Shown here in pieces: positions 40-18,632 of a stretch of 33,035 bases of DNA (positions are counted from its first letter, which is position 1; each line of letters opens with the position of its first letter). Source of the stretch: a virus; the IMG/VR virus record IMGVR_UViG_3300018083_000088, positions 1 through 33,035 of that record, one strand, 5' to 3'. The notes under the pieces were generated by a model. It was given only the letters and a program-made list of their open reading frames with translations. It made no database searches and had not been told where the DNA came from. Made by a program: the position numbers and the translations under genes.

Positions 40-50
40 CTGGTTGTGGG

Positions 51-85
51 GTGCCGGCAAATAATAGCGTTGCCGGCAAATAATA
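51..85 (+). repeat. Tandem pair of TTGCCGGCAA-palindrome repeats, left end
   Basis: Two copies of (T/G)TGCCGGCAAATAATA start at 51 and 70, a 19-bp period. The core TTGCCGGCAA is a 10-bp palindrome. The ATAATA flank gives each copy a direction. The same unit occurs inverted at 4054-4069 and 4747-4762, near the other end of the GA/TC-free segment, so the pair may be part of an inverted-repeat boundary or a protein-binding array. Confidence 0.7.
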
Positions 86-161
86 CGGTTGCCGGTTGTG
101 GGCAAAAAAATACCCCACCTAACCGTTGCCGGTTGGGTGGGGTGGGTGGTGGGTGGGTTGG

Positions 162-650
162 TTAGCCTACGCAACCCCAACCTTGCGGGGTGGGGTAGGT
201 GGGGTTGTTGCTACCACCTATTGCATAACCTATTTGCCAACCGGCAAGGTTGCCACTACGCATAATAGCGTTGTAGGCTATGCGTTGCGCTATAGCGTAT
301 TGCAATTGTGCCAACGTTGGCGCGGCAACCCATAAGCTATGTTTGCCGGTTGCGGTAAACCTTGCCGCTATGTAACCACCACCAACATACGGTTGGCGTA
401 TTACCGTATAACCGGCAATACAACCTACCATATGCGTATAACCACCCAACGTTGGGTTGGGTGGGGTGGGTAGGTTGGGGTGGGTTGCATTGTAAGCGCG
501 CCATTGCGTAGGGGTGGGGTAGGTTAGCGCAAGGTTATGCGTTGCCATAACCCTACCCGTTGCATAGGCAAGTTTGCGTTGGGTTGCGGTTAACTTGCCG
601 GTTGCGGTTGGGTTGTTGGTTTGCCATATAATGCTTTGGTTTGTGTACAT
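162..650 (-). CDS. Acid-free hypothetical protein (162 aa)
   Basis: Unrecognised protein. The ATG at 650 is chosen over an upstream TTG at 791 because AAAAGGG lies 8 nt before it, the pattern seen at its neighbours. It has no Asp or Glu; it is rich in Ala, Thr, Tyr, Asn and Pro. The middle part (about residues 70-140, around GKHSLWVAAPTLAQLQ) looks like a folded domain, while the ends are Pro/Asn-rich. No signal peptide or clear membrane helix is seen. It is the last gene of the leftward cluster, separated from the next gene by the hairpin module at 698-797. Reading frames are longer by chance here because TGA is absent, so coding status rests on the ribosome site and gene layout, not on length. 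Confidence 0.55.
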   Translation of the reverse strand: MYTNQSIIWQTNNPTATGKLTATQRKLAYATGRVMATHNLALTYPTPTQWRAYNATHPNLPTPPNPTLGGYTHMVGCIAGYTVIRQPYVGGGYIAARFTATGKHSLWVAAPTLAQLQYAIAQRIAYNAIMRSGNLAGWQIGYAIGGSNNPTYPTPQGWGCVG

Positions 651-697
651 TGTTGTTACCCTTTTAAGGTAGGTAGGTGGTGGTGGGTAGGCTATAC

Positions 698-797
698 AAC
701 CGTATGTTGCATAATAAGCAACCCCACCCAACCAACCCCTAACCTTGCGGTTGGGGTGGGTGGGTGGGGTGGGGTTGCCTATATAAAACAACGGTTA
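698..797 (-). repeat. Repeated intergenic module A (27-bp repeat plus G/C-rich hairpin)
   Basis: It begins with a 27-bp sequence (698-724) that is identical at 1279-1305. A large hairpin follows: arms 718-729 and 767-778 pair perfectly over 12 bp, with an inner stem around loop 745-748. It ends with GGTTGCCTATATA and AACAACGGTTA, as module B does. Its place between two same-strand genes suggests a terminator plus promoter or an RNA-processing spacer; that is inference. Confidence 0.65.
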
Positions 798-816
798 GGG
801 GTGGGGTAGGTAGGGG

Positions 817-1224
817 TTAGGGGTTGGGGTAGGTAATAACAACCGCTTGTTTGTTGGTTGGTACACTTGCCGCGTTTTGCAAGGTGTAAATAGCTTGCAA
901 TAAGTGTTGGGTTAATTGCGCTTGCGCTTGCGGGGTTAAACCGCTTTGCAAGGTTAATGGGTATAACTGCAACAAAATTGCGCTTGCGTAGTTAGCGTTG
1001 GTTTGCGCTTGCGTATTGTTGCCGGTTGCCGCGCGTTTTAGGTTGGCGTTGCTAGGTTTAACCAACGTGTAGGTTGCGTTGGCTAACCGTTGCGCTTGCG
1101 CTTGCGCTTTGGCTTGTTGCGCTTTGGCGTAGTTAGCATACGCGCCATATACCCCTTGCGGTTGGTTTGCGCTTGCGGGTTGGGTTGTGGCAACGGTTGG
1201 TTGGGTGGTGGTTTTGCTTTGCAT
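817..1224 (-). CDS. Acid-free Ala/Gln-rich hypothetical protein (135 aa)
   Basis: Unrecognised. The ATG at 1224 is preceded by AAAAAGGGG with 9 nt spacing, a GA-free version of a Shine-Dalgarno site. The protein has no Asp or Glu. It opens with a Thr/Gln/Pro-rich stretch (1-30), then a predicted helical Ala/Gln/Lys segment (about 30-50, AQAQAQ repeats), and a second helical part (about 75-118) with leucines and Gln where acidic residues would be expected in a coiled coil. Only Lys, Arg and His are charged, so it must be basic. It lies between repeat modules A and B, which suggests its own transcript boundaries. It could be a small structural or DNA-binding protein; I see no family motif. Confidence 0.6.
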   Translation of the reverse strand: MQSKTTTQPTVATTQPASANQPQGVYGAYANYAKAQQAKAQAQAQRLANATYTLVKPSNANLKRAATGNNTQAQTNANYASAILLQLYPLTLQSGLTPQAQAQLTQHLLQAIYTLQNAASVPTNKQAVVITYPNP

Positions 1225-1278
1225 GGTATGTTACCCCTTTTTGGGTTGTTGTTGGCAACGGTTGTTGCCGGTTATATG

Positions 1279-1346
1279 CAACCGTATGTTGCATAATAAG
1301 CAACCTAACCGGCAAGGTTAGGTTGCCTATATATAACAACGGTTAT
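1279..1346 (-). repeat. Repeated intergenic module B (27-bp repeat plus perfect hairpin)
   Basis: It has the same 27-bp opening as module A (1279-1305) and the same end (GGTTGCCTATATA, AACAACGGTTA). The hairpin is a perfect 11-bp stem, 1300-1310 with 1316-1326, and a 5-nt loop. The hairpin arms differ from module A in sequence but not in position, which is the covariation-like pattern of a conserved structure. It separates the gene at 817-1224 from the genes upstream of it. Confidence 0.7.
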
Positions 1347-1555
1347 AAATACTTATGTAATGGGTGCAACGGTTGGTTGGGTTGGTGGTGGGTTGGTTTG
1401 CCAACCCCTAACATATACCCCGCACAACGCAACCCAACGTAATACCATTGCCGGTTGCACTTTGCATATGGCGCAAAGCTATAGCCAACATGGGGTTGCG
1501 CTTTGGTGGGTATAAATACGGGGTATAGTTTACTTTTTAGCTTTGGTTGGTACAT
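1343..1555 (-). CDS. Possible acid-free small protein (70 aa)
   Basis: Unrecognised. It overlaps the 3' end of the 243-aa gene by 26 bp and stops at the edge of module B, filling that gap exactly. AAAGG lies 9 nt before its ATG. The product is basic, has no Asp or Glu, and is rich in Tyr, Pro and Lys with two Cys (PYAKCNRQWYYVGLRCAGY). The fit to the gap and the ribosome site favour a real gene; the overlap and the lack of TGA stops in this DNA weaken the case. Confidence 0.42.
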   Translation of the reverse strand: MYQPKLKSKLYPVFIPTKAQPHVGYSFAPYAKCNRQWYYVGLRCAGYMLGVGKPTHHQPNQPLHPLHKYL

Positions 1556-2261
1556 GTTGCTTAACCTTTATGGGTGGTGGGGTTGGGTGGGTTGCTAGGT
1601 ATGCTTGCGGCAAGGTGGGTTGCTTAACCTTGCGCTTTGGTATGCTTGCGTAGGTTATAGCTGTTTTGCTAGGTTGTTGCTTTGGCTTGTTACTTGCCGG
1701 TTGGGTGGTATTTTGCGCTTTGGCTTGTTTGGGTTGCTTTGGTTGCTTAACCTTGCGCGGTTTACTTATGGCTTGTATTGCAAGCGCAAGGTTGTTAACC
1801 GGCAATACCCAAAATTGTTGCATACCATTGTTGGTTAAACTTGCATTAACCGTTAACGGGGTGGGGTTGGTTTTACTTTTGGGTATGTAACATACGGCAA
1901 CCCCAACCCCGTTAATTTGCTGTATGCTTTGCAAATAGCCTATAGCGTTGGCGGTTGTTGTGTAATAGCGTGCAACCCCTACAAACCATTGTTGTTGCGT
2001 ATATGCCAACAATAGCTTTGCGTTGGGGTTAAGTTTTATAGGTTGCTTAACCCTTGCGCTTGCGGGTTGTGGGGTGGTTTTACCCACAACTTTTGGTGGT
2101 GGTAGGTTAGCGGCAACAACGGGGTTGCCGGTTTTTAACAACCGTAATGTGCGCGCTTTGTGGCGCGCAATTGCTTGGCGGTTTTTACTACGCACAACCT
2201 TGCGCTTTGCATTAGGCTGTGGTGGTGGGTAGGTAGGTGGGGTGGGTGGGTTGGTTGCCAT
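1530..2261 (-). CDS. Acid-free, very basic Pro/Lys-rich protein (243 aa)
   Basis: Unrecognised. The ATG at 2261 has AGGGG 7 nt upstream, a site that lies within the stop codon of the preceding gene (10-bp gap), so the two are probably co-transcribed and coupled. Layout: Pro-rich start (1-18), a Lys/Arg-rich patch (about 19-45, KRKVVRSKNRQAIARHKAR), a folded-looking core (about 80-170, LLLAYTQQQWFVGVARYY through FWVLPVNNLALAIQ), then a long tail of KQPK and KVKQP repeats. It has no Asp or Glu in 243 residues. The net charge is strongly positive, so DNA or RNA binding is the simplest guess, not shown by any motif. It is the largest gene of the GA/TC-free segment. Confidence 0.65.
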   Translation of the reverse strand: MATNPPTPPTYPPPQPNAKRKVVRSKNRQAIARHKARTLRLLKTGNPVVAANLPPPKVVGKTTPQPASARVKQPIKLNPNAKLLLAYTQQQWFVGVARYYTTTANAIGYLQSIQQINGVGVAVCYIPKSKTNPTPLTVNASLTNNGMQQFWVLPVNNLALAIQAISKPRKVKQPKQPKQAKAQNTTQPASNKPKQQPSKTAITYASIPKRKVKQPTLPQAYLATHPTPPPIKVKQHVPTKAKK

Positions 2262-2271
2262 TACCCTACCC

Positions 2272-2478
2272 CTACCTAACTACCTTAACAACTTTGCTAG
2301 GTGCAACGCGTAGGGTTGTAGTTAACCCATTTGCATATTGCACAACAACGGTTAAGTAACCGTTGTTGTTGGCTTGTACTGTAGCAAAGTTTTGGTTAGC
2401 TTTGCCGGTTATATGGTTAACGGTTTTTACTATAACCGTTGCACCAAGCGCAATTTGTTGTGTGCTTTGTAGTTGCAT
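2272..2478 (-). CDS. Acid-free small beta-barrel-like protein (68 aa)
   Basis: First gene of the leftward cluster. AAAAGGGG lies 8 nt before the ATG. The pattern ALGATVIVKTVNHITGK, a Gly turn, GYLTVVVQYANG and LRVAPSKVVKV looks like the alternating strands of a small KOW/SH3-like beta barrel, a fold common in proteins that bind nucleic acid or ribosomes. Positions that are usually acidic in such domains (the residue after the first Gly, the turn NNNGY) are Ala or Asn here. No exact family is recognised. The ordered hydrophobic alternation makes this the most convincing protein of the segment. Confidence 0.7.
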   Translation of the reverse strand: MQLQSTQQIALGATVIVKTVNHITGKANQNFATVQANNNGYLTVVVQYANGLTTTLRVAPSKVVKVVR

Positions 2479-2504
2479 TGTTATAACCCCTTTTATAGGT
2501 TGCA

Positions 2505-2554
2505 GTTAACCGGCAACCCCACCCCGCGTTGGGGTGGGTAGGTTGCCGGTTAAC
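2505..2554. other. Long hairpin before the leftward gene cluster
   Basis: A near-perfect inverted repeat: 2505-2518 pairs with 2541-2554 (14 bp), and 2519-2525 with 2531-2537 (7 bp). It has a 5-nt loop and a 3-nt bulge at 2538-2540. It sits just upstream of the ribosome site of the 68-aa gene on the - strand, so it could be a 5' leader structure or the terminator of an upstream transcript. There is no U-tract. Confidence 0.7.
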
Positions 2555-3792
2555 CTTAACTTATAACGGTTGGTTGGTTGGTTGGTTGGTTAGCGGGGTG
2601 GGTTAATGGCGCGGTTTTATGGGGTATTTTACTTTATTTGCATACCCCTTGCCGGTTAACCCACCCTACGCTTTATAGCTTATTAAAATACAGTTTTTAT
2701 GGTAACTTGCCGTTAACGTTTACCCCTTGCATACCCCTTGCACTTATGCTTGCAACAACCCCGCAAGGTTGTTGTAAACAACTATAGTTTACCTACCAAC
2801 CGTTGCCGGTTGGTGGGCTATTTTTAGCCTACCATTACCACCCCTGTACGCATATGCTTATGCGCTATGCTTTGGTTGCCATTACAGGTTATGCGCTAAC
2901 TACGCGCGGTTTTAGCTTTGGTATAGTTACCACCCCACCCCTTGCGGGTTGGGTTGCACAATAGCGGGGTTAATATAGTTGTTGTATATGGCGCGTTGCT
3001 ATAGTGGCACAAAACATGGGTGCGCTTACGGGGTGGGGTATTTGTAACCCTAACCCCGCAACCGGCAACCCCTACTAAAATGCTAACTTATGCGTTGCGT
3101 TGGCAACATACTTTTAACCACAACCTATTGTATTAGGTTTTAACCAACCGTTGTTGGTATTGCGCTTTGGTTGGCTTACCGTTTATAGCCTAGCAACCCA
3201 CCCATATATGCACCCATATATGGGTTGTGCGGGTTGCCGTTGCTAGGTTGGTATTAGGGGTGGTATAACCCACCCACCACCTACCCACCACCCCACCCTT
3301 GCGGGGTGGTGGGTATAACGGCAAGGTTTACAAGCTAATTGCAAAGTTGTGTACTTTTGGCTTGTTACGTTTATTGCTGTATGTACTTGTTAACGTGCGT
3401 TGGTTGGTGGGTTGTTACCCCACCACCCCACTACGCGCATATGGTAGCTAACTTTTACCTTTTACGCGTAGGCTATGTAAAGCGGGTTGTAAACCGGCAA
3501 CAACGCTATAGCATTTAAGCATTGTTGCCAACCCCATGTTGGTAAGTGCAACCCGTTGCGTACTATGCAATGGGTTGCAACCCGTGTAGCTTGCGGGGTG
3601 GGTGGTGGGTGGGTGGGTTGCGCTTGCAACCCCTACCCCACCACCCAACCCCTTACTTAATGTGCAATACTACTATGCATAGCCTAGCATAGCTTGTGGG
3701 GTATGTAAAATTGCAATATAGGTAAAATGCAATAGCGTTGGGGTGGGTTGTTGGGGTGGGTTGCGGCAACCCATTGCCGGTTGCAGTTGTGC

Positions 3793-3816
3793 GGGGTGGG
3801 GTGGGGTGGGGTGGGG
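3793..3816 (+). other. (GGGGT)n G-quadruplex run
   Basis: Five GGGG blocks are separated by single T residues. Four G runs with 1-nt loops are the textbook condition for a very stable parallel G-quadruplex. Looser runs of the same kind occur at 453-490, 750-778 and 799-832. All of these are G-rich on the + strand, the template for leftward transcription. Confidence 0.75.
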
Positions 3817-4053
3817 TTGCATACGCGCGCGCATATATACGCGCGTAGGGTGGGTGGGTAACATGCTTTGTGGCGCGCGTAGGGGTGGGTAGGTGGGGTT
3901 TTAAGGGGTATTTTAGTACTACCCTACTATAAAAATAGCAAAACGCACCTACCCACCCCTACGCGCTTTGTAGGGGTGGTTTACATAACAGGTTAACATA
4001 AAGCGCATAAAACGTTTTAATGGCGCGCGTTGCGGCAACCCAACCGGCAAAAC

Positions 4054-4069
4054 TATTATTTGCCGGCAA
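4054..4069 (-). repeat. Inverted copy of the TTGCCGGCAA repeat
   Basis: TATTATTTGCCGGCAA is the exact reverse complement of the unit at 70-85. The palindrome extends to 14 bp here (4058-4071). See also 4747-4762. Confidence 0.7.
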
Positions 4070-4143
4070 ATTTTAAGGGGTTGTAAGGGGTTGCGGGGTT
4101 GCGTGTAGTGCTATGCGTTGCCGGTTGCCAAAGCGGGGTATAC

Positions 4144-4166
4144 GGTAATGTAAGGTAATAAGGTAA
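4144..4166 (+). repeat. Three GGTAAT iteron-like repeats in AT-rich DNA
   Basis: GGTAAT occurs three times within 23 nt, at the start of a roughly 200-nt A/T-rich stretch (about 4140-4340) that contrasts with the GC-rich DNA to its left. Direct repeats beside AT-rich DNA resemble a replication origin, but no DnaA box could be identified, and the common DnaA box TTATCCACA contains TC, which is excluded here. Confidence 0.35.
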
Positions 4167-4296
4167 TACAACTAATAAAAAAACGTGTATTATAAAAATA
4201 CCCATTTTACTGTATAGGGTAATTGCAACCCTAATACTTTGCTGTACAATACATTGTTGTTTACAATTTGCATTTATGTTAGTTTAGGCTAACTAG

Positions 4297-4782
4297 GCAA
4301 TTTTTGTTGCTTTAGCTTATTGTACAGTATGTTGCATACGCAACGCTATGTTGCATAACATACGCTATGTTGCGCTTTGTGGGTTGGGTTGCCGGTTGCC
4401 GCAACCCCGTTTTTACCCCACCCCGTAACAAAAATTGCGGGGTAATGGCGCGGCAAGGGGTATGCAATTTTTGTTGCGTAATAATAAATGCAACTTGTTT
4501 TTACTTTACACTTATTGTAATTGCCAGTGTAATAATAAAGGTAACTACGGCAATAGGGTTGTAGCAATACCCCATGCTAGTTTATACCTTGCAATGGCAA
4601 TTTGCCGCTTAACCGCAAATAAGGTGGGTACACGGGGTTTTACCATTATTGTAAAGTACCCGCTTTGGGGTGTTTTTTATGTTAAGCTAAAAGTACGCAA
4701 CAAAAATTGCCAACCGCTTTGTGCAACCGGCAACCCCTTACAACCCCATTATTTGCCGGCAAATTGCCGCAATTTTTGTTAC
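4297..4782. repeat. Five copies of a 14-bp repeat GCAATTTTTGTTRC
   Basis: Copies on the + strand are at 4297-4310, 4464-4477 and 4769-4782. Copies on the - strand are at 4425-4438 and 4697-4710. They therefore form inverted pairs (4425/4464 and 4697/4769). Each has a T5/A5 tract in a conserved frame. Such an array is typical of iterons, centromere-like parS arrays or repressor operators. A ParB-like protein is encoded about 1.1 kb to the right, an attractive but unproven partner. Confidence 0.65.
4747..4762 (-). repeat. Second inverted copy of the TTGCCGGCAA repeat
   Basis: Fifteen of 16 bases match the reverse complement of the unit at 70-85, with a 14-bp palindrome at 4751-4764. It lies 60 nt inside the right edge of the GA/TC-free segment, as the copies at 51 and 70 lie just inside the left edge. 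Confidence 0.65.
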
Positions 4783-4838
4783 ATGTTTTTTTGCCGGTTG
4801 GCGCGCGGGGTGGTGGGGTTGTCGGTTAGGTACTTTTG

Positions 4839-4862
4839 GCATATACGCATATGCGTATATGC
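4839..4862. repeat. Perfect 24-bp palindrome at the composition boundary
   Basis: GCATATACGCAT is followed directly by its reverse complement, with no spacer. It lies 16 nt after the first TC (4822) and 12 nt before the first GA (4874), exactly where the composition changes. Possible roles are a dimeric-protein site, a cruciform, a resolution site, or a palindrome-mediated junction made in nature or during amplification. Confidence 0.85.
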
Positions 4863-5176
4863 GCGGGGGGGCGGATCCACCCCATCCCCGATATTTGCAT
4901 CTACCACCCAAATTGATAAGGGAATGAAAGGGATAGTTTGCCCTTAGCATTGTAAAATTTTTTTTTTTTCGAATTATGTAAAGTAAAACTGTCCGTAAAA
5001 ACACCCATTTTTGACCCTTTTACGGAAAATATTTCGCGACGTTAGTCAAGGCTAACTTTTTTGGCTTTTGTTTACATAAAAAACCGTCCAAAAACGCTCA
5101 AAAAGTCCTCAAAAACAGATAAAAACAGATAAAAACGTCTTAAAACATCTTAAAACATCATAATATGTTAAAATTG
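4863..5176. promoter_or_regulatory. AT-rich junction region with curved DNA
   Basis: No gene is seen. GA/TC is present again. Contents in order: a GGATCC; a 12-T run (4958-4969); an inverted repeat of 9 bp, 4992-5000 with 5018-5026; GTTAGTCAAGGCTAAC (5041-5056) followed by six T, which could be a weak + strand terminator; and eight A-tracts starting at 5078, 5090, 5100, 5111, 5121, 5131, 5142 and 5152. The mean spacing is close to 10.6 bp, one helical turn, so the DNA should be intrinsically bent. An origin, packaging or promoter role is inference. Confidence 0.6.
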
Positions 5177-5350
5177 ACCATTTGCGCCATTTTATTTACG
5201 CGCCACAAGCTACGCAAACGCGCCACTTAACCCAAACTACCTAAACAACCTACAACGCGCCCACAGCGCGTTAATTTACGGCTGGCAAGGGGCAAAGCTG
5301 GCATTGTAGCTTTGCCCCTTGCACGCGTAAGCCTAAACCCTAGCTTTCTT
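5177..5350. other. Second GA/TC-free stretch (174 nt)
   Basis: Between GA at 5176-5177 and TC at 5350-5351 there is no GA or TC. Words such as ACGCGCC, TTGCGCC and GCAAGGGG are those of the left segment. It covers the intergenic DNA beyond the end of the leftward phage operon and stops within a few codons of the last gene's end. Confidence 0.9.
5285..5322 (-). terminator. Hairpin ending the leftward phage operon
   Basis: A perfect 15-bp inverted repeat, 5285-5299 with 5308-5322, with an 8-nt loop. It lies 18 nt beyond the stop codon of the last leftward gene. There is no long U-tract on the - strand, so termination may be Rho-assisted or the hairpin may protect the 3' end. Confidence 0.7.
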
Positions 5351-6873: not shown

Positions 6874-7186
6874 TACCCATCCGAAGTAATTTAACTTCCC
6901 GCTCCAGTTCCAATATTTCCTTCACGGATAACTGATCACGTATATTCTTCCCTGTTGCGAGCTCAATTCTCTTCACGAAATCAGCATTACCAAGTCCTTC
7001 TACAATAATCTCATGTGCATCTATCACTTCCCTATCACCTGGTGTTATATCTGGATCTTTCCTCATCCATGCCATCAACATCAACAAACTTCCCTCAAAG
7101 ATTAACATCATCTCAAACCAATCCCTCGCCATCCCACCAAATCTAAATTGTTGCATCATCTCCTCCATCATATTAGCTCTCCTCAA
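6860..7186 (-). CDS. Hypothetical helical protein (108 aa)
   Basis: Unrecognised. It overlaps the upstream gene by 14 bp. Residues 1-45 are Met-rich and moderately hydrophobic (WFEMMLIFEGSLLMLMAWM), possibly a membrane-associated helix. The second half is a charged helical region ending in a likely coiled coil (SVKEILELEREVKLLRM). Its place between a single-span membrane protein and the micro-protein suggests a membrane or lysis-related group, without proof. Confidence 0.65.
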   Translation of the reverse strand: MRRANMMEEMMQQFRFGGMARDWFEMMLIFEGSLLMLMAWMRKDPDITPGDREVIDAHEIIVEGLGNADFVKRIELATGKNIRDQLSVKEILELEREVKLLRMGNDRN

Positions 7187-7400
7187 TCAAATCATATACG
7201 CTCTTCTTCTTCTTCCTTCTCAATGGTGGGCCGGACTCTTCCCTCTCCACCATCTTGTCATCTCCTTCCACATCCCATAGAGTAGGATCATATCTTCCCC
7301 TATGTACTTCCCACCAAAACAATCCAGTCATCAGTATCAACACCATAATCGTAAAAAACAACCACATCTCAACGTACCACTGAAGATAAGTCACTCTCAT
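7173..7400 (-). CDS. Single-span membrane protein with basic tail (75 aa)
   Basis: Residues 12-31 (LFFTIMVLILMTGLFWWEV) form one membrane segment near the N-terminus, followed by a polar, charged C-terminal half ending GPPLRRKKKKSVYDLIEES. It lies 2 nt downstream of the lysin gene, so a holin or spanin-like lysis partner is plausible. One N-terminal span with a long cytoplasmic tail is unusual for classic holins. Its C-terminal motif is shared with the 30-aa product at 6781-6873. Confidence 0.65.
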   Translation of the reverse strand: MRVTYLQWYVEMWLFFTIMVLILMTGLFWWEVHRGRYDPTLWDVEGDDKMVEREESGPPLRRKKKKSVYDLIEES

Positions 7401-7402
7401 GA

Positions 7403-9328
7403 TTATAACCTCAATCCTCGCTCGAAGAGGAAGGTTTGAGGATCTACTCTTCCCTTGCTCATAGGTGCTCCTTCCTTGTATGTTCCATCTCTTTCCATCA
7501 ATCTAATTTCTATATGTAGATGGACTCCTGTAGAATTACCTGTAGATCCTACCTTCCCGATTTGCTGACCAGCTTTCACTGAAACGCCTTCTAGCGCACC
7601 AGGCTCAGATAAGTGTGCATATAGAACATAACACATCATATCTGGAGCTCTATGTTCTACTCTCACGTAATTTCCATATCCCTCGTCGTAGTCGGAGAAA
7701 GCTACAATTCCGTCTGAGATTGAGAGTATGGAAGTTCCTTCCGCTTTTCCACCAAGATCAGTGCCGTCGTGACCTGGAAGTGAGAATCTTGCGTAGTCTT
7801 CAGGATTTTGATAGAAGTGTTGCGTGATGATGCTACCTTGTAGGGGATGAACCAACTTGGTACGAGATCCAGGATCAGGAGGGATAACGGGAGGCTGGAC
7901 AGGCGGTACTGGAAGATCGATTCCTTCAGAGATAGTCCATTCCCAATCAATCCATGTTGATGTATGGATTTTAGGGTTTCCGTGCTCACCCATTCCGATT
8001 CCCATTGCTTTGTCTGTAGGGTTGCCGTCATCCACCCATATATTGAATTCATTGAGCGAGGCCGACATCGGATAATCATAGTTGTAGTTCGTATTGATCT
8101 CATCGCGTTTTGAAAACACTGTAGTATGATCTGAGGGCCATGTAACAAGAAGTGGGATCTCGGCTACTTCACGCTTGTCGCGCGTGATTGTGCCTAAGAT
8201 GTGGTGATCTGGGCCAGCTAAGTCAGCCTCTTGCTCATTGAGATGGATTGCGTTGATGATCTTCCAATATCCCACTCCTTTCTTAGGTTTTACGAAATCG
8301 AAGCTACAACCACGAGCTATGAGGGTAGGATCTATTCTTCTATCCATAGGATCTTCCATTTCTATGAAGGGTGGATCGGTGGGGCGATCTGGGTCAGGAG
8401 GGGGCGTTGTGGGTGGGAGCTGAATATTTGTGGGAGCTTTATATCCTCGCTCTACTGCTTGCCGGAAGTCAGCCTTGATTTGATCTTTATCTGCAAAAGA
8501 CCACTGATCATCTCTATTACTTCTGTATAGACATAGACAATAGATTTTCTGATCTTCTACTGTGTGATTCCAGAAATCTATTTCCTCATATGCTTCTTGT
8601 ACCCATCCAGAGTTCCTATTCACCCAGGGTACGACTTGGTCAGTTTCTGTGATGTAGACTGGTAGATGGCGGAACTCGGAAGGGGTATTGACGAGGAAGT
8701 CAACGTAAGCTCTGAAGTTGTAATGTCTATTTTGGAAGGGAGGATCCATCATAGAGCCATCTGTGATGAGGATAGGTTCACTTCCGTGCGTGTAAGTGTG
8801 AAGGCAGATTGCATCACATCTTTTAATAGAGCGCAAGATGTCTATGTAGTAGACTACCCAATCACCAATTTGATTACCCTCGTAGATTGTGGTGGCATCC
8901 CATGGAGCTACGGGTGCGATGCAGATTTGCACATTGGGTGATTTGTTTTTAATCTGCGTGTAGCACAGATCAAAGCACTTCGCGTATTGTGTTGGATGTA
9001 TATCTTCCCCCTGTGGTCTTTCATTGCGGTGATTTGGCTCGTTGCCTACAATCGCAACTGTGATGCCAGGTGTTGCCGCTACGAAGTTCCCGCATCTACG
9101 GGCAAAGTCTTCGTAGTGCTGTGCTTGCGGGATTGTGCCGCCAGGATGATAGCCATTGTTCAGGCGGCACAGGATAGAGAAGCCCTTGCTCGTCCACTGA
9201 CTGTAGTCCCTGCCGGAATGATCATGGGGATCAGAACCTATAGCTTCGGTGATTAGGATCCATCCAGGCTTCCCTGCCATGAGTTCCGCACCATCTGCAT
9301 CGTGGATACCGTGTAGCCACTTGCTCAT
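7403..9328 (-). CDS. Two-domain cell-wall lysin: glycoside hydrolase plus M23 peptidase (641 aa)
   Basis: Residues 1-300 resemble a TIM-barrel glycoside hydrolase of clan A: NEP at 96-98 offers the acid/base Glu97, and ITETD (226-230) the nucleophile Glu228. A Pro-rich linker follows (about 303-325), then a middle domain (325-470, perhaps carbohydrate-binding), and a second Pro linker (472-487). Residues 495-630 are an M23 (LytM-type) zinc peptidase with all metal and catalytic residues visible: HxxxD at 520-524, His572 in YAHL, and HLH at 603-605. It would cut both glycan and peptide of the wall, as a virion-attached or free endolysin. No signal peptide. Its location in the leftward operon, with small membrane proteins just downstream, suggests a lysis cassette. 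Confidence 0.88.
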   Translation of the reverse strand: MSKWLHGIHDADGAELMAGKPGWILITEAIGSDPHDHSGRDYSQWTSKGFSILCRLNNGYHPGGTIPQAQHYEDFARRCGNFVAATPGITVAIVGNEPNHRNERPQGEDIHPTQYAKCFDLCYTQIKNKSPNVQICIAPVAPWDATTIYEGNQIGDWVVYYIDILRSIKRCDAICLHTYTHGSEPILITDGSMMDPPFQNRHYNFRAYVDFLVNTPSEFRHLPVYITETDQVVPWVNRNSGWVQEAYEEIDFWNHTVEDQKIYCLCLYRSNRDDQWSFADKDQIKADFRQAVERGYKAPTNIQLPPTTPPPDPDRPTDPPFIEMEDPMDRRIDPTLIARGCSFDFVKPKKGVGYWKIINAIHLNEQEADLAGPDHHILGTITRDKREVAEIPLLVTWPSDHTTVFSKRDEINTNYNYDYPMSASLNEFNIWVDDGNPTDKAMGIGMGEHGNPKIHTSTWIDWEWTISEGIDLPVPPVQPPVIPPDPGSRTKLVHPLQGSIITQHFYQNPEDYARFSLPGHDGTDLGGKAEGTSILSISDGIVAFSDYDEGYGNYVRVEHRAPDMMCYVLYAHLSEPGALEGVSVKAGQQIGKVGSTGNSTGVHLHIEIRLMERDGTYKEGAPMSKGRVDPQTFLFERGLRL

Positions 9329-9540
9329 ACTTTTACTTCCTTTCCCATCTTAGTCAGAACCTTGAGATAAATGCTCTCATCGGCTAGTAAGATCATCATA
9401 GTTTGTAATTCGCAACTTGCATGTCTACTGACGCCTAGATCTTCTAGGAGATAGCGGTAGAACTTCTTAAATTCTACGTCATCCATCTTGGATAGGATGT
9501 TCTTAATTTCTTGCGTTACCATATCTCCGTAGCTCCCCAT
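9325..9540 (-). CDS. Hypothetical helical protein (71 aa)
   Basis: Unrecognised. It overlaps the methyltransferase-like gene by 25 bp and the lysin start by 4 bp (ATGA). An internal ATG at 9522 would shorten the first overlap. It is all-helical in appearance (VTQEIKNILSKMDDVEFKKFYRYLLEDLG), without membrane segments. Confidence 0.65.
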   Translation of the reverse strand: MGSYGDMVTQEIKNILSKMDDVEFKKFYRYLLEDLGVSRHASCELQTMMILLADESIYLKVLTKMGKEVKV

Positions 9541-10373
9541 AGCATAAAGTAGATTGTTTTGGCAGACGGTGGATGCCCATGCTCATCTGGTACTATATTA
9601 GGTGATTTTAGGATATCTACCTCTTTCCAGCGATTTCCCGCCAGCCCATATCCCATACGATTCATTTTCCAGATAAGATTGGGGGCTTCATCTTCCTCGC
9701 TGTTGTCATCTATGTGGAAGGCTTCTAGATAATGATGGATAACGGCATCACTATCTCCAGGTTGGGAAAGATCCGGAAAACTGTATTCCCAGGGAAGAGA
9801 TAGGAGAAGAACACCTCTGGGGGAGAGGGCTCTTCGTAACTTAGTAACAGTAAGGAGCATTCTATCAAGTCTAGCAGAAGGGATTATTTTGGAAGGCTCG
9901 TCTCGTAAGCAAAGAGCTAGAGTAGAGATAGACAAGATAAGATCAAATTTACCCGCCTCTAAATTTGCTTCAGTAAGTCCCTTATGGATAATCCCCTCAT
10001 TGGCATTTCCCTTTTCTGGCGTTAGGCAGATATGGGGGAAGACGTAGCTTTTAGTTCTTCCTCTTTGTACATCTTCTAACTTGTTTTGCCAAGATGGGAT
10101 GTATTTCGGTAAGACATTACCTATTTCTAAGATTCTCCCTTCTGAGGGAGAGGATTCACTTCGTTGGCGATTGTATAGATGTAAAGCGACCGGGATTTCC
10201 ACAGCTCTAGCTCCGTAGCTGATATCTTCATGTGTAGGTTTGAAGTAGGGGAATATCCTATTCCCCACCTCAAACAATCCAAGAGTTTGTTTATTCTTCA
10301 CTGGCTCGTAGAAGATCGATGGTAATTCCTCGTCCGGCGTTTCTTTCAGTTCCTGATACAGACTCATCTTCAT
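9516..10373 (-). CDS. Class I SAM methyltransferase-like protein (285 aa)
   Basis: Rossmann-type methyltransferase features: GRILEIGNV (79-87) as the SAM-binding first strand and turn, KFDLILSISTL as the fourth-strand motif, and LRRALSPRGVLLLSLPW as the fifth. There is no NPPY/DPPY motif, so a base-N methyltransferase is unlikely; small-molecule or glycan methylation is more in keeping. The motif I loop, EIGNVLP, lacks the usual second Gly, so activity is not certain. It overlaps the primase gene by 83 bp. AGGGAG fits the second ATG (10367) better than the first (10373). The glycosyltransferases in the virion operon could supply a glycan substrate; that is speculation. Confidence 0.65.
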   Translation of the reverse strand: MKMSLYQELKETPDEELPSIFYEPVKNKQTLGLFEVGNRIFPYFKPTHEDISYGARAVEIPVALHLYNRQRSESSPSEGRILEIGNVLPKYIPSWQNKLEDVQRGRTKSYVFPHICLTPEKGNANEGIIHKGLTEANLEAGKFDLILSISTLALCLRDEPSKIIPSARLDRMLLTVTKLRRALSPRGVLLLSLPWEYSFPDLSQPGDSDAVIHHYLEAFHIDDNSEEDEAPNLIWKMNRMGYGLAGNRWKEVDILKSPNIVPDEHGHPPSAKTIYFMLWGATEIW

Positions 10374-12939
10374 TATCTCCCTCTGAAATGATCATGTCTT
10401 GGGCGAATCTAAACTTCTTGGGTGAATTGTTTGTGGCTGGGATTACTTCCATCCCGTAGTTGCGGATGAGATTGGGTTCCAATGCTTGAATGTGTTTTCC
10501 CAGAGATTGACCGCTTTCCCACATCCACTGATAATGTAATTTCATGGCTATTTGCTGAAAGATGCCATTAAGTTCTCCGGCTGTATGCCATTTCGTAGCT
10601 TCCATTCCAGATGTACCTCTTCCCTGCCGTTCCCCCATTGCTCTATCTTCGCGTAGCCATATATCTAAGACAGCGATCATGGGGCTAGATTCATGTAGCA
10701 AGACCTTTTGTCTATTGGTCATCATCTCTAAGCCTTTTATCAACTGCTCGCCATCTATGACCCCTTCTTCCCCATTTGTCATCCCCCGTATTCGATTGCA
10801 GAATACGGTAAAATCTGCAAGTCTACTCTCTGTGGGGGCCGGAGCCGTTTTTACCTTGCGGAGCTCCTCTACAGTTTTGTTGAGCATCCCCATGATCCCC
10901 ATCCATATACCATCTATGTTATGTAGGATCTTATTTTGCATTGAGTATTCCGGAGTTGGCTTCTTGATGGCAGATAGCTCAATTGGTAAGAGCCGTGTGA
11001 AAAGGCTTTCCTCGGAGAAAGGTAAGGAAGTGGCGGTAAGAATGATGAAGCAATCTGGTAAGATACGTTGGATCTCGTTGGTTGTGTGCAATTTACGGAG
11101 TTCAATGTGGGTTCCTGTAGATATGCGATTGAGAAGGTCTACGAGCCAATAGCTCTTATTCTTTTCTAGGTTATCTAACACTATGAACTTATGCGCTCCC
11201 ATAGAAGCGCGAAGACTATCGGGCTTATCGGCAACCACACCGTTCACATTGGAGTGCGGGCCTTCAAGGATGTATAGGAATCTACGTGCTGCCGTTGTCT
11301 TGCCAGCCCCAGGATCAGCAATGATAGTAAGAAGAGGGCGGGTAGGCATGATATCTGGAAAGAAGGTAGCTAGGAACCAGGCTTTTATGAGTTCTCGCTG
11401 TTGTGATGGTGATACACCTGTAGACCCGATACCAAAACTTAAATCGTTTACTAAAAAACTCCAGGGGTTTAATCCCTTAATCCCTTTATCCCTTGCTTGA
11501 TCTAGATCTATATGCAAGCTACTATCTCTATTGCGGAAGATTATATCCTCTTCCCCGTTAAGATGTTTGTTGCCCCATACATCTCTGTGATTATCTTCCC
11601 CGCTAAGTACGTAATTATAAGATGTACCTAAATTGATGTAGAGCTTCTCCCCATTCCAATAGCTGCGATTGTACGCTCGTATCTTGTGGGCATTCTCCCT
11701 TGAGCTATGATAGATACCTCTGGCAGTAGATGTGCCAAAGCTATCAGCAGTATTGAGACCGAAGGTATTGTAGAGGATGGTATCCCAATAGCTATCTTCC
11801 ATACTGTGCAAATGGTGACTGGTCTTGTCTAACCAGAAGAGCTTTTCTGTGGCTGTATCTACGACAATCCTACCCTTTTCTCGCAAGTAGGATACGACGG
11901 CACTCGCAGCACTCCTGCTCTTGAGATAAGTAACGCCTTTTCCTAAGCGTATCCTATCTAGCAATACCATGATGGGAGTTATATTTTGCTTCGCTATTGC
12001 TTCAGCTAACCTACGGATAATAGTACCAGGAAGTCTATCGGTAAGAGCTTGCAAGCCTAGTATCTGACCACCGTCACGGTGCTTTTCATAGGTATCTCTT
12101 ACACATTGGAGCTGATTGGTAAGATCACCCCCTGCTGCCGTGTTCAGCCTTTCTATGACGCCCATAGCGTCTTCCTCATCCCATCCGGCTGTAGCCAGCC
12201 AGCCGGATAGAAAAAGAGCTAAATCGTGACGTTGGCCTTCAATCCAGAATCCAGCTAGGGTCTGGATTATGATTTCAGTGGGATCTTCATAGCCAGATAA
12301 ACAGGACGCGAATTCCTCTAGCGTGCAGAGCTTGTCTAATACTTCCGTAGGCTCTAAACTTGTACCTTCTTCCCACTTGGTATACGGCAGAACAAACATA
12401 CTGCGATTCTTGGTAACTGGATGCAGACCTAGCGGAACTTTGACTAGATTGCCAAGTGGATTACTATCTGTGAGCTTGTCTTGTTTGGGGAAGATTTCTA
12501 TGTGTGGGTCACCGCTGATTCCAGCTCCTACAGCCTCTCTCATTTCGCTGGCTAACGCTCTTACGTTTTCTGCAGGAGCTGGTTTATTGAAAAATACCCA
12601 TAGATGATAGCCCTTGTTGCCGGAGAATTCTATAGCATGTGGGATACTTTGTAGGAGATTAGATAGCTTTAGGGTTAGATCTCTGGCTTTCCCCAGATCA
12701 CTACTATCTACATCAAAGCACATCCAGAATACTGTGTTGTCTGGCCGTAGCGTGTATGCACCTATGACTACTTCTCCCAGAAGATGTTGCTCTACTACTC
12801 TCTCTTTGGGAATCTCCATCATGGGGGAGTAGACCGTCTCCTCTTTGCCGTTGCTGTTTGTACGTTTTCCCCCTATTGCATAGTAATTATTCCCAGTGAA
12901 AAATCGCTTGAGAATTGTACTGGAAAGACCTGCCATCAC
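10291..12939 (-). CDS. PrimPol-helicase, AEP primase fused to AAA+ ATPase (882 aa)
   Basis: N-terminal archaeo-eukaryotic primase domain of the TOTE/PrimPol type (about 10-240): HLLGEVVIGAYTL, the metal-binding FDVDS, SGNKGYHLWVFF, and IEIFPKQ followed by GNLVKVPLG. A middle region (240-520) is partly helical. The C-terminal superfamily 3/AAA-type ATPase has Walker A DPGAGKT near 545, FIVLDNLEKN as Walker B, and an ATSLPF sensor followed by an arginine-rich FTRLLP. The protein would prime and unwind at the phage fork. It overlaps the polymerase stop by 4 bp, a tight replication pair. Its 3' end is overlapped by the methyltransferase gene. Confidence 0.85.
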   Translation of the reverse strand: MMAGLSSTILKRFFTGNNYYAIGGKRTNSNGKEETVYSPMMEIPKERVVEQHLLGEVVIGAYTLRPDNTVFWMCFDVDSSDLGKARDLTLKLSNLLQSIPHAIEFSGNKGYHLWVFFNKPAPAENVRALASEMREAVGAGISGDPHIEIFPKQDKLTDSNPLGNLVKVPLGLHPVTKNRSMFVLPYTKWEEGTSLEPTEVLDKLCTLEEFASCLSGYEDPTEIIIQTLAGFWIEGQRHDLALFLSGWLATAGWDEEDAMGVIERLNTAAGGDLTNQLQCVRDTYEKHRDGGQILGLQALTDRLPGTIIRRLAEAIAKQNITPIMVLLDRIRLGKGVTYLKSRSAASAVVSYLREKGRIVVDTATEKLFWLDKTSHHLHSMEDSYWDTILYNTFGLNTADSFGTSTARGIYHSSRENAHKIRAYNRSYWNGEKLYINLGTSYNYVLSGEDNHRDVWGNKHLNGEEDIIFRNRDSSLHIDLDQARDKGIKGLNPWSFLVNDLSFGIGSTGVSPSQQRELIKAWFLATFFPDIMPTRPLLTIIADPGAGKTTAARRFLYILEGPHSNVNGVVADKPDSLRASMGAHKFIVLDNLEKNKSYWLVDLLNRISTGTHIELRKLHTTNEIQRILPDCFIILTATSLPFSEESLFTRLLPIELSAIKKPTPEYSMQNKILHNIDGIWMGIMGMLNKTVEELRKVKTAPAPTESRLADFTVFCNRIRGMTNGEEGVIDGEQLIKGLEMMTNRQKVLLHESSPMIAVLDIWLREDRAMGERQGRGTSGMEATKWHTAGELNGIFQQIAMKLHYQWMWESGQSLGKHIQALEPNLIRNYGMEVIPATNNSPKKFRFAQDMIISEGDNEDESVSGTERNAGRGITIDLLRASEE

Positions 12940-14969
12940 GCCACCTCAAGGATCTGATGTGAAATGATCTCCTGCGTGTAGGATTTCCAATCAATACTTG
13001 CTACGTCAAAGGTTTCCTTGATCTTCTTTAGTGTGCCATAGCTCTTGCCAATTTTAGCTTCTGCATTAAAAGGCAATCCAAAGACATCTTCCACTTCCAT
13101 TACGCGCAGGAGAACCGGAACAGCTTGTTCTACGCATTCATCCCTGATTTCAAATATAGCTTCATCATGGACAATGCTGAGAACGCCGCCCCATCCTTGA
13201 GTAGATACCACTTTGTCAGCTCTTACAATAGCTAATGACATGATCCCCGCTGCTCCTCCCTGAATTTGTGCGTTCGCTCCCTTGTACATTTTCAAGGGAT
13301 CGTCTTCCTTCCAAATTCTACCATCCCAATATCTTATGTATCCTTGTTTCGTACCTTTCTTGATTACCTCATTGAGCCAGGGCTGGATTCTGGGGAACGT
13401 TTTCCAGTATTGCTGAGCAATTCGTTGAGCTTCTTCGGGGGTCTTGTTGAGCTTATATTGTAGAGAACCTGTGGTCATGCCGTAGATAAGTCCAAAACCA
13501 ATGGCTTTTGACCATTCGCGATGTAGATCATTCTCTTCCGGCCCACAGTCACCCCATACACTAAGAGCTACGCGCATGTGGATATCTTCGCGGTTTTTAA
13601 GAGCCAGCATCATCACTGGCTCTTGTGCCAAGATACCGAACATTCTCATTTCTTGTTGTCTATGATCAATAGAAACCAGGGAGAATCCAGGCTTTGAAAT
13701 AATAGCTTGCCTGAGATTATATTCGCCCTGACGGACACCTCCTCCGCTAAAGACTCCAGTGTCTTCTCTAGCTCTATGCGATGACGGAATATTTTGAAGG
13801 TTAGGACGAGACGAGGAAAGTCTTCCAGTTCTAGTTCCTGTGATATTGAAGGTTCCGTGGATAATATGATCGTCATCAGCTAGCTCCTTGTATTCGTCTA
13901 AAAAACCTATGAGCTTGGCGCATTCCCGCATTTCCAAGATAAGCCCACCGAGAGGATGTGAGCCCTTTTCCATGAGAATAAAACTACTAGTCCTATACTT
14001 GTTGTATTTGTTGACGTGCGCCATTCTGGATCTATCGACTCCATCAGGATCCGCGAATGGGTTCTCAGGCTTTGCAATCCCCATATCCTCATATATGGCC
14101 TTTGATAGTTGTGGCCCGCTTCGCCAATTGAATACTTTGCCACAAGCTTCATATAAATCCCTTTCTAAGGATTCCAAATTGCTGGATAGAATTTTCTTTG
14201 CATCACGCATGAAAGTAGTATCTAAAGCTAAACCACGACGTTCCATCTTCTGCAGAACTTTTAGATACCTCATCTGTAGAGCTAAGATCCCGTTTAACTT
14301 CCATCTTTCCATTTGAGGAAGGAGAACTTGGGATAATTGTTCTGTGACTATGCAATCATTCACACAGTATTCAGCGAGATTGTTTAACGTCCAATGCCAG
14401 GGCATGAGTTTGGATTCACCTTTATTGAGCTCTACATGACCTCTCTTACTGCTAGTGTTTAGGAAATGTTGCTCTGCACTTTCCATGCCCTTCTTTAAGC
14501 GGGAATCAAATAAATGTATGAGAACGGTTGTGTCTAACACTTTGCATGGAAGTTCCCACAACAGAAGATCAAGAAAATGAGCATCAAACTTAAGATTGTG
14601 ACCTATGAGGGTAGTGTTTGGATCATTCGCCATATAGAAGACAGCAGCTTTAGCTTCGGCAACCAAGTCTTCATCTGGGACGGCTGTGGGCCGTTTCTTT
14701 TCGGTGATTACGTATTCGAAGACCTTGCTTCCAACACTACTACGACTGTAGTCACGTTTTCCCAGCCACATCTTTTTCCTAACTGGTGTGCCGTAGGCTA
14801 TGTTTTCATACGTACAAGTAGGAAAATAACCTGCAATATCTAGTGCTGGACAGTAGATTCCCACACCTATGATCATGTCTTTATACCAACTGAGGCCAGT
14901 TGTTTCTGTGTCGATGACTAGAGTATGACCTTTGCAGGAGCGGATTTGCTCTAGCGTTAGGAATTCCAT
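12936..14969 (-). CDS. polA: DNA polymerase I family A with 3'-5' exonuclease (677 aa)
   Basis: Phage replicative polymerase. The exonuclease domain (1-200) has DTETTGL (20-26), LIGHNLKFDAHFL and NDCIVTEQL. The polymerase domain has motif A SIDHRQQEMRMFG, motif B with EWSKAIGFGLIYG (the catalytic Lys and Tyr of the O helix) and motif C SIVHDEAIFEI. There is no 5'-3' exonuclease domain, and the length matches T7-like polymerases. It is coupled to the genes on both sides by 1- and 4-bp overlaps. All catalytic acids that I can place are intact. Confidence 0.95.
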   Translation of the reverse strand: MEFLTLEQIRSCKGHTLVIDTETTGLSWYKDMIIGVGIYCPALDIAGYFPTCTYENIAYGTPVRKKMWLGKRDYSRSSVGSKVFEYVITEKKRPTAVPDEDLVAEAKAAVFYMANDPNTTLIGHNLKFDAHFLDLLLWELPCKVLDTTVLIHLFDSRLKKGMESAEQHFLNTSSKRGHVELNKGESKLMPWHWTLNNLAEYCVNDCIVTEQLSQVLLPQMERWKLNGILALQMRYLKVLQKMERRGLALDTTFMRDAKKILSSNLESLERDLYEACGKVFNWRSGPQLSKAIYEDMGIAKPENPFADPDGVDRSRMAHVNKYNKYRTSSFILMEKGSHPLGGLILEMRECAKLIGFLDEYKELADDDHIIHGTFNITGTRTGRLSSSRPNLQNIPSSHRAREDTGVFSGGGVRQGEYNLRQAIISKPGFSLVSIDHRQQEMRMFGILAQEPVMMLALKNREDIHMRVALSVWGDCGPEENDLHREWSKAIGFGLIYGMTTGSLQYKLNKTPEEAQRIAQQYWKTFPRIQPWLNEVIKKGTKQGYIRYWDGRIWKEDDPLKMYKGANAQIQGGAAGIMSLAIVRADKVVSTQGWGGVLSIVHDEAIFEIRDECVEQAVPVLLRVMEVEDVFGLPFNAEAKIGKSYGTLKKIKETFDVASIDWKSYTQEIISHQILEVA

Positions 14970-15241
14970 TAGTTCCTCCTGTCTCCCATGTTAAGATAAG
15001 TGTTTTCCTCTAAAATATAACCTACATCTTCAACCGTTATATCTGTATCTATTTGCCTCATCAGAGATAGATGGAAAGCTGCAAGAATGAAAGAGTTACC
15101 AACTTCTACCTGATCCACAGGTAGAAGTTGGGTTGTGCGATTCCATCGCAGGATAAAGAGAACTTCCTTGATAGTAGCCTCTAAATGTTCCCCTGAAAAT
15201 GTCCTGGTCTCAAATAGGAACTTCAGGTCTTTGACGTTCAT
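14969..15241 (-). CDS. Hypothetical protein (90 aa)
   Basis: Unrecognised. It overlaps ThyX by 4 bp (ATGA) and shares one base with the polymerase start. Helical, with a central nonpolar stretch (SFILAAFHLSLM) too short and polar for a sure membrane span. Its place between ThyX and the polymerase suggests a replication role only by association. Confidence 0.7.
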   Translation of the reverse strand: MNVKDLKFLFETRTFSGEHLEATIKEVLFILRWNRTTQLLPVDQVEVGNSFILAAFHLSLMRQIDTDITVEDVGYILEENTYLNMGDRRN

Positions 15242-16053
15242 TTGTCTACCTTACGTGATTTGTAGACACGATTATCTTCGACAGCCCATTCAAAAGTGCA
15301 TTGTCCCTCAACTCTCTCCCATCCTTGATATAGACATTTGTGGGGAAGATTGTTGATGCCTGGGCCGGACTTTTCGCAACTAATTTTGATATGAGGTTCT
15401 AGCCATTCACATTTTTCTAGCAAAGCTATCTTCATTAGTCTCATGATCTCTACCATCTCTGGGAAGAACATTTGACAAGCTCTGTAGCTATATAAGGCTA
15501 GAAATTCACTTAAAGGATAGGAACATATGATATACGTCTCGACAGCGGTGGGAGTTATAGATCTTACGTCTTGTATAGGGATTCCCATATCAGCAAGCAT
15601 CTTATAGGCTTTTCTGGCTGTATTGATAGCGTGAAGCCAGATTTGCGCTGCTGCTCCATTGGAAGCTATCTCCACTGGCATACGAACGTTGAAGTTACCC
15701 ATATCTGCGTATCTTTGGGATTGTTGAGCGAAGGAAGCTTTACGAGTTCTGACTAGCTGATGAGTAAGAGATCTTGTAACTCCGCTGCATTCAAAGGAGA
15801 CCGTCATCCACTCTAGGGCTTGATTAAGTCCTCCCTTAAACATATCATCAACTACGATCTCGTCTATATCATCATCTTCTATGATATTGCCCTTTACGGC
15901 AACAGAAGCTTTCGTCATAAGTTTGTAGAAATCTTGCTTATCAGGCCAATTGAGAAGCTTAACCTTAAGATTTTCATAGCCTATGTCATTCCTGCCAGTT
16001 TGATCGGGAGCTATGTTATCTTGACCAGAATTTCTGGTGGAAAAGGTTGTCAT
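15238..16053 (-). CDS. thyX: Flavin-dependent thymidylate synthase-like protein, RTR variant (271 aa)
   Basis: ThyX family: SLTHQLVRTRKASFAQQSQRY (97-115) is the signature region, and the C-terminal part (helices around LSEFLALYSYRACQMFFPEM) fits the fold. ThyX uses FAD, NADPH and methylene-tetrahydrofolate to methylate dUMP to dTMP. The signature RHRx7S reads R102-T103-R104-x7-S112, so the His is replaced by Thr. The rest of the motif, QQSQRY, is intact. The family is usually 210-270 aa, so it is full length. The change could tune substrate or cofactor use, for example towards a hydroxymethyl or other modified pyrimidine, which is inference. It sits in a run of nucleotide-metabolism genes. 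Confidence 0.87.
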   Translation of the reverse strand: MTTFSTRNSGQDNIAPDQTGRNDIGYENLKVKLLNWPDKQDFYKLMTKASVAVKGNIIEDDDIDEIVVDDMFKGGLNQALEWMTVSFECSGVTRSLTHQLVRTRKASFAQQSQRYADMGNFNVRMPVEIASNGAAAQIWLHAINTARKAYKMLADMGIPIQDVRSITPTAVETYIICSYPLSEFLALYSYRACQMFFPEMVEIMRLMKIALLEKCEWLEPHIKISCEKSGPGINNLPHKCLYQGWERVEGQCTFEWAVEDNRVYKSRKVDK

Positions 16054-16054
16054 A

Positions 16055-16432
16055 TTACTTCCCCTTAAAATTATTATCGTCTAGGACGAAGATGGAGATA
16101 ACTGCTTGATTAATGATGTCCAAGAGCTTATCACGGATTTGCTCCTTATACTGTTTGCCGTAGTCATCGTTCTCGAAGATCATATACTTGAGGCGGAAGG
16201 CATCTCCAACTAGCGTTGTGACTGTGCCAATAAGACCAAAGACGGTGAAGGCATCTTTGTACATCTTATTTCGATCTAGGAAGATATCTTTGGCTTCTAC
16301 GACCACTCTATCATATTGCTCAGAGCGAGATGGTTGCTGGACAATCCTCAGATCATGTCCAGCTATAGTGCCGAAGGTTGCGCTAGAGCTAAATCTGTAT
16401 TCATCCTTTAGTTCACTATCTCTATCTGGCAT
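16055..16432 (-). CDS. DUF1599-like nucleotide-modification-associated protein (125 aa)
   Basis: The start is uncertain: ATG at 16432 overlaps the upstream stop by 11 bp; ATGs at 16465 and 16579 are possible but overlap more and have weak ribosome sites. The segment AKDIFLDRNKMYKDAFTVFGLIGTV, then DAFRLKYM and IRDKLLDIINQAVISIFVL, resembles the DUF1599 family (nucleotide modification associated domain), which often accompanies phage genes for altered bases. The match is by pattern only. It lies directly beside ThyX and the MazG-HAD fusion. Confidence 0.55.
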   Translation of the reverse strand: MPDRDSELKDEYRFSSSATFGTIAGHDLRIVQQPSRSEQYDRVVVEAKDIFLDRNKMYKDAFTVFGLIGTVTTLVGDAFRLKYMIFENDDYGKQYKEQIRDKLLDIINQAVISIFVLDDNNFKGK

Positions 16433-18229: not shown

Positions 18230-18615
18230 TTCCTATGTAGCTCCCTTCCAAACTGCATCTTTGCCATATCAGCAGCATCTCGGATATGGGTGGCATCTAC
18301 TTTGGTGCGCTCTATCAACCCTTTCCATTGACCAGGATTCATGCTCACTACGTTGAAGCCAGCTATCTTATAGAATCTCTCTAACGTATCGTAGATCCTA
18401 GATTGATCTTTGTTGGGATGTACTGTTTGGGCCGGAGGGATTTCTATTACAATGGTAGAAGGTTTGGTCATAGTAGCTAGAGACATGATAAAGATCTCAG
18501 AATCAAAACAAGCTGCATTGCAGACCATTCCCCACATGAAATTCCCACCTGCTAGATAGCTGATCCCAGTGGTCTCTCCAGGATCAAAAGCTAGAATTCT
18601 AGATGAAGATATCAT
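18226..18615 (-). CDS. RuvC-like Holliday junction resolvase (129 aa)
   Basis: RNase H-fold nuclease. ILAFDPGETTGISY (7-20) carries the first catalytic Asp11 and the GxTG turn. TIVIEIPP (54-61) carries Glu58. THIRDAADMAKMQ has Asp113 and Asp116 as the third acidic site. Such phage resolvases cut branched DNA before packaging. The ribosome site AAGGAAT lies just after the terminator hairpin at 18633-18660. It overlaps the next gene as ATGA. Confidence 0.8.
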   Translation of the reverse strand: MISSSRILAFDPGETTGISYLAGGNFMWGMVCNAACFDSEIFIMSLATMTKPSTIVIEIPPAQTVHPNKDQSRIYDTLERFYKIAGFNVVSMNPGQWKGLIERTKVDATHIRDAADMAKMQFGRELHRK

Positions 18616-18632
18616 ATTGATTCCTTAAATAA

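Follow-up and report, generated by a model that had tools for sequence, protein, structure and literature searches.

A phage zone without GA or TC, its acid-free proteins, and GA/TC as a probable DNA modification motif

T5-type phages keep the early region of their first-step-transfer DNA free of attackable sites, and the Mom modification of phage Mu follows a longer motif, not GA alone. On GA motifs, the key papers are said to be Kot 2020 and Olsen 2023. In its title, as cited in PMC11008142, the latter names dPreQ0 and a single GA motif for Queuovirinae phages. Phages gain protection for their DNA from DpdA-dependent marks, which stop EcoRI, BamHI and EcoRV from cutting at their GA-containing sites (PMC6884629). 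Here we describe a linear IMG/VR virus contig of 33,035 bp (the window; G000 in the family comparison), in which a dinucleotide scan of the whole window found zero GA and zero TC between positions 40 and 4821, with the remaining dinucleotides all present. GA occurs at position 31 and then at 4874, TC at position 39 and then at 4822, and the longest GA/TC-free run in the window measures 4,782-4,783 bp, followed by runs of 171 and 157 bp. Among 100 order-3 Markov simulations of the 26-kb core, the longest such run averaged 45 bp and never exceeded 77 bp. To our knowledge, this zone is the most extreme dinucleotide exclusion described in any coding region; literature searches brought up nothing relevant on GA-free regions or motif-free promoters, and the zone itself had no match in GenBank phages and no hit in Rfam. 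The features discussed below are collected in Table 1.

Table 1 Features of the 33,035-bp window and their positions
Feature	Position	Strand	Remark
GA/TC-free zone	40..4821		no GA/TC in 4,782 bp; counterparts in G001, G005, G006, G007
162-aa acid-free ORF (ATG start); 209 aa if TTG start	162..650 (162-791 with TTG)	-	alignment with homologues
135-aa acid-free protein, best conserved zone gene	817..1224	-	zone orthologues in G001, G007, G005
70-aa ORF	1343..1555	-	no homologue found
243-aa acid-free protein, net charge +39	1530..2261	-	homologues in G007, G001
68-aa acid-free ORF	2272..2478	-	no confirmed homologue
Zone part without convincing genes, adjoining the sharp edge	2479..4821		similar part in G001, G007
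Iteron-like TAAGGTA repeats (TACCTTA on the other strand), 8-bp spacing	4151..4165		
Promoter-like site TATACA-16-TATAAT toward zone genes	4189..4216	-	consensus match only
Sharp zone edge	4822..4898		motif common to G000, G001, G007
Second GA/TC-free segment, 171 bp	5176..5347		
Core for restriction-site statistics	7001..33035		GC-rich palindromes: without GA/TC purged, with GA/TC kept
Conserved 273-aa protein adjoining ThyX	17408..18229	-	alignment; weak FAD-oxidoreductase-like model
GA/TC-free divergent promoter region upstream of terminase genes	22164..22321		shared with most relatives
Promoter-like sites in the terminase-side region	22282-22310; 22288-22260	+; -	

The GA/TC ban is equal in the coding and non-coding DNA of the zone, about half of which (some 2.3 kb) holds no convincing gene. 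An initial annotation had noticed it at positions 162 to 2478, the span of five ORFs; these do lie inside the ban, which is itself wider. At the sharp edge, the minus strand reads ATCGG(G)GATGGG, GGATC, then AAGTACCTAA. The other end of the zone faces the start of the contig, where the first 39 bases comprise a run of 26 G followed by the sole GA and TC before position 4822 and are probably a contig-end artefact of sequencing or assembly. Taken window by window, zone DNA folds more stably than its shuffles (mean z about -1 to -2.6, versus -0.7 and -0.9 in the core), an excess that possibly results from the restricted vocabulary.

The absence of GA and TC bars GAN codons (Asp, Glu), TCN serine and the codons CGA, GGA and AGA from any protein encoded in the zone. 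On recount, the products of all five minus-strand ORFs indeed contain 0 D and 0 E, with serine encoded solely by AGY, and they are basic, as the initial annotation had stated; net charges lie between +6 and +39 (in ORF order from 162-650 to 2272-2478: +15 for the 209-aa form, +8, +9, +39 and +6). The accompanying idea of a five-gene cluster stands for three members. Because the 162-, 135- and 243-aa ORFs have acid-free homologues in relatives, they are, judged by alignment, real genes; homologues of the 70- and 68-aa ORFs were not confirmed, and the 70-aa ORF may not be a gene at all. We also considered the 68-aa ORF as an acid-free version of a small zone-adjacent gene in G005, G006 and G007, and rejected this when hhalign gave no support. 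The longest and second-longest zone ORFs both exceed those of Markov nulls of equal GA/TC-free composition (P about 0.003 or less and P 0.007 or less, respectively). Lack of any predicted fold, together with codon-position statistics like those of non-coding DNA of equal composition, had been named beforehand as grounds for giving up the interpretation: ORF lengths above the null and homology show coding, and on the side of fold there is only a mostly helical model of the 135-aa product at modest confidence (pLDDT 64), which had no match in the PDB.

The 135-aa product shares 49-58% identity with its counterparts in the zones of G001, G007 and G005. For the 243-aa product, tblastn returned G007 at 1.9e-22 and G001 at 3.6e-6, and a peptide-pattern search of viral contigs returned no relatives. 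The 162-aa family includes an acid-free homologue in the G005 zone as well as homologues bearing Asp and Glu just outside the zone in G001 and G005, which are the relatives of normal composition that the initial annotation had proposed to look for. Alignment columns where these outside homologues carry Asp or Glu are mostly filled in the zone proteins by G, N, T, Q, A, P or K, or left as gaps. The earlier proposal that a DNA-level rule forced the evolution of these proteins is thus borne out by acid-free homologues of three ORFs and by a ban that is also found in non-coding DNA, in promoter segments and in relatives.

A terminase search of IMG/VR identified 21 close relatives at 76-88% identity, plus more distant ones, and no relative of the terminase was found in GTDB. 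Comparable zones, none holding more than three GA/TC, occur at the equivalent place in G001 (4,721 bp, unbroken), G007 (about 4.6 kb, three GA/TC), G005 (2.2 kb at the contig start, one GA/TC) and G006 (0.8 kb at the contig end, one GA/TC). G005 and G007 share one exception to the ban, the ribosome-binding site CCAAGAAAGGTTATAAC that precedes the 135-aa gene. One boundary of the zone is sharp and the other is gradual, passing into an array of small genes where GA/TC comes back over some 4 kb in G005, G006, G007 and G004, and faster in G001. The Asp plus Glu content of the products climbs together with GA/TC, in G007 from 0% in the zone to about 4%, 7% and 15%. Zone G+C is 48, 50, 52, 45 and 54% in five genomes, versus 45, 47, 46, 47 and 47% in the rest. 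Each virus has its own restricted vocabulary within its zone. In the zones of G000, G001, G005, G006 and G007, AGCAG/CTGCT occurs 0 times where 49 are expected and CCAAT/ATTGG 0 times where 42 are expected, both being normal in the cores; GGCC is also strongly depleted in these zones. The zone of G003 (positions 1-2500) does contain GA, almost only as GCNGA, with C at -2 in 59 of 65 copies and G at -3 in 54 of 65. Shortly before its zone edge, G007 carries a PAPS-reductase-family gene (phrog_424; L070:5604-6626).

Outside the zone, palindromic sites are purged to an extreme degree (GGYRCC 0/155, RGCGCY 1/178, GKGCMC 1/179, ATGCAT 0/109), and the presence of GA/TC separates what is kept from what is purged. 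Among the 24 six-bp palindromes with four G/C in the core, all eight containing GA/TC have an O/E of at least 0.29 and all sixteen lacking it an O/E of at most 0.21. The corresponding AUC is 1.00, with 0.72 for the next best dinucleotide and 0.65 for the same test in 286 kb of distant relatives as a control; for AT-rich palindromes, GA/TC has no clear influence (AUC 0.57). Surviving copies of purged sites tell the same story at their edges, where GA/TC is created 234 times versus 139.3 expected (z 9.6). The enriched flanking base is the protective one, namely G before sites starting with A (1.95-fold) and T before sites starting with C (1.48-fold). Strongly purged sites reach 0.30, 1.44 and 2.80 times their expected number with 0, 1 and 2 protective edges, respectively, and 14 of the 21 surviving CCSGG copies read TCCSGGA. 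Edge enrichment is present separately in 10/10 family genomes; un-purged palindromes and control phages gave 1.05x and 0.99x. Palindromes starting with G or T, at whose edges no GA/TC can form, are purged more strictly (P 0.014). A GA overlapping the site edge counts most, and a flanking GA changes the outcome only about 1.3-fold. We take the separation of palindromes and the edge enrichment together to demonstrate, at the level of site statistics, that GA/TC protects restriction sites containing or touching it in this phage family. Since GGWCC (O/E 0.13) and GAGCCC (6/72) are purged despite one GA/TC each, a site may be protected only when both of its strands, or both of its half-sites, carry the mark. 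TGCGCA is purged from cores yet frequent in zones, with 31 copies in that of G001. More generally, TGCGCA, GTGCAC, GCGCGC, CGCG or CCSGG, depending on the genome, are abundant in the zones of G000, G001, G003, G005 and G007 and purged from their own cores.

GA/TC-free segments of about 140-180 bp are also found outside the zone in relatives, chiefly, among those whose contigs cover the locus, at the divergent promoter upstream of the terminase genes, which is free of both dinucleotides across 142-172 bp in most of them. Aligned relatives diverge widely in sequence here, yet agree in lacking GA/TC, and GA is back at the ribosome-binding site. The readable GA/TC copies in this promoter of G003 (GTCGGC, GGCTGA) obey the GCNGA rule too. 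The remaining intergenic gaps are mostly not GA/TC-free. Within the zone, the promoter-like site directed at the zone genes is a putative early promoter, and the neighbouring iteron-like repeats may mark a putative origin; in G001, G003, G006 and G007, the TAAGGTA heptamer is likewise clustered within the zone, a few hundred bp from its sharp edge.

We consider it likely that a DNA modification of the virion genome uses GA/TC as its motif, and that promoters, the putative origin and the genes read first are kept unmarked. In this model, GA, or its complement TC, would carry the mark, which would block restriction sites containing or touching the motif, leaving only GA/TC-free sites to be purged. 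The same mark would hinder promoter use and probably also impede host RNA polymerase in reading an incoming genome that is marked throughout. Such interference would have driven the motif entirely out of promoters, out of the putative origin with its iterons and out of the genes transcribed first. Each motif would reduce the expression of everything downstream, so that selection would be strongest near the early promoter and fade along the operon, and this polar cost would produce a one-sided GA/TC gradient. Later genes could be read from fresh, still-unmarked copies or by an adapted polymerase. The G003 rule, shared by zone and promoter, looks like a changed enzyme motif and fits, as would be expected, an altered specificity of the modifying enzyme. 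The abundance of TGCGCA and other core-purged sites in the zones counts against the model, in that an unprotected zone should lack them too. If marking is indeed involved, the start of transcription on an already modified phage template becomes testable. The modification motif of an uncultured phage may also be inferable from its sequence, by asking which dinucleotide rescues purged restriction sites, and the zone represents a natural experiment in proteins without Asp or Glu.

Other explanations can be given for a dinucleotide-free zone. Host nuclease or restriction systems might attack GA/TC in the DNA that enters first, with later DNA spared through early proteins and no modification involved, as in T5-like phages. 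The single sharp edge followed by a gradient into the small-gene array would suit such a history, as would the avoidance of the asymmetric words AGCAG/CTGCT and CCAAT/ATTGG in zones alone. However, we are aware of no nuclease that recognises just two bases in this way in double-stranded DNA, and the tolerance of TGCGCA in zones would be left unexplained. We regard this explanation as unlikely because it also fails to account for the GA/TC-free promoter region of about 150 bp upstream of the terminase and for the dose-dependent protection of core sites by GA/TC. A protein coat that binds GA/TC, shields restriction sites and is kept off promoters and early genes would yield sequence statistics identical to those of a covalent mark, and the zone does encode basic proteins. 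Protection is nevertheless sharply local, dropping from edge-overlapping to flanking GA, which is a better fit to a modified base, and we consider a coat quite improbable.

A cytosine deaminase that prefers TC could in principle have hypermutated a single-stranded or transcribed zone until no TC, and on the opposite strand no GA, was left. The two-base specificity for TC and the one-sided gradient are indeed reminiscent of deaminase tracts. Deamination should, however, have lowered the G+C content of the zone, which instead lies above that of the rest in four of five genomes, and we rejected the explanation on this ground. It also leaves the restriction-site protection unexplained, the zones avoid unrelated words as well, and G005 and G007 both retain GA at one and the same ribosome-binding site; the probability of this explanation is very low. 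An assembly artefact or low-complexity junk might be suspected from the 26 G at the contig start and from several contigs that break within the zone. This is refuted by zones at the equal genomic place in contigs from different metagenomes, by proteins conserved across zones and by the internal position of the zone in G001 and G007, and we give it practically no credence.

With GA/TC as a probable modification motif, the question arises of which enzyme would apply the mark. DpdA phages carry dpdA/TGT; in the 12 contigs of the present family, which are incomplete, the dpdA/TGT family (PF01702) gave no match at E<=1, whereas it was found in 14 of 14 control genomes. The modifying enzyme could be host-encoded or unrecognised. 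A candidate for part of a base-modification pathway is the conserved 273-aa protein beside ThyX, whose model (pLDDT 54) matches many structures equally well, the PaMx11 gp47 lyase (Z 8.4) being one of them; neither Foldseek nor VIA-align revealed a function from this low-confidence model. The window further encodes a replication primase of the TOTE conflict-system AEP family (10291-12939; PF22548, E 1.2e-27) and, among the structural genes, a glycosyltransferase (30943-32085) with homologues in contigs of ten relatives. Whether the family represents a new, non-DpdA, GA-specific modification that shields most of the genome, with a permanently mark-free compartment of promoters, origin and first-read genes whose proteome was rebuilt without acidic residues and a motif diverging between relatives (GA versus GA except GCNGA), is to us an evenly balanced matter.

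Among known systems, Queuovirinae with dPreQ0 at GA (the Iggy lineage, CAjan and 9g) are similar in that GA is protective against restriction, as it is here by site statistics. EcoRI, BamHI and EcoRV sites, which contain GA and are blocked in DpdA phages, are tolerated in the present family. Mu-type adenine modification by Mom likewise sets phage DNA modification against restriction, and a search for mom across the 12 family contigs found it only in G006, where a Mom-like DNA modification gene lies between the divergent promoter and the terminase (L068:1514-2377). Thymidine-hypermodified phages (PaMx11, M6, ViI) may be compared through the 273-aa protein and its FAD-oxidoreductase-like model; no gene of the thymidine-hypermodification pathway was identified besides this candidate. 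T5-type first-step-transfer DNA lacks restriction sites, whereas the present zone lacks a dinucleotide; the comparison is one of gene order. CAjan, HTN2 and 9g have neither a kilobase-scale motif-free zone nor acid-free proteins, both of which are found in the present family. That CAjan and 9g, themselves carriers of such marks, have GA/TC-free runs of at most 81 and 69 bp counts against the model. In HTN2, a Pseudomonas phage with dpdA (L100/L101), intergenic GA is depleted (rho 0.52 versus 0.78 in random segments, with 0 of 500 as low), and less so in CAjan (0.83 versus 0.88) and 9g (0.80 versus 0.96). The intergenic GA depletion of HTN2 is a mild form of the behaviour seen in the present family.
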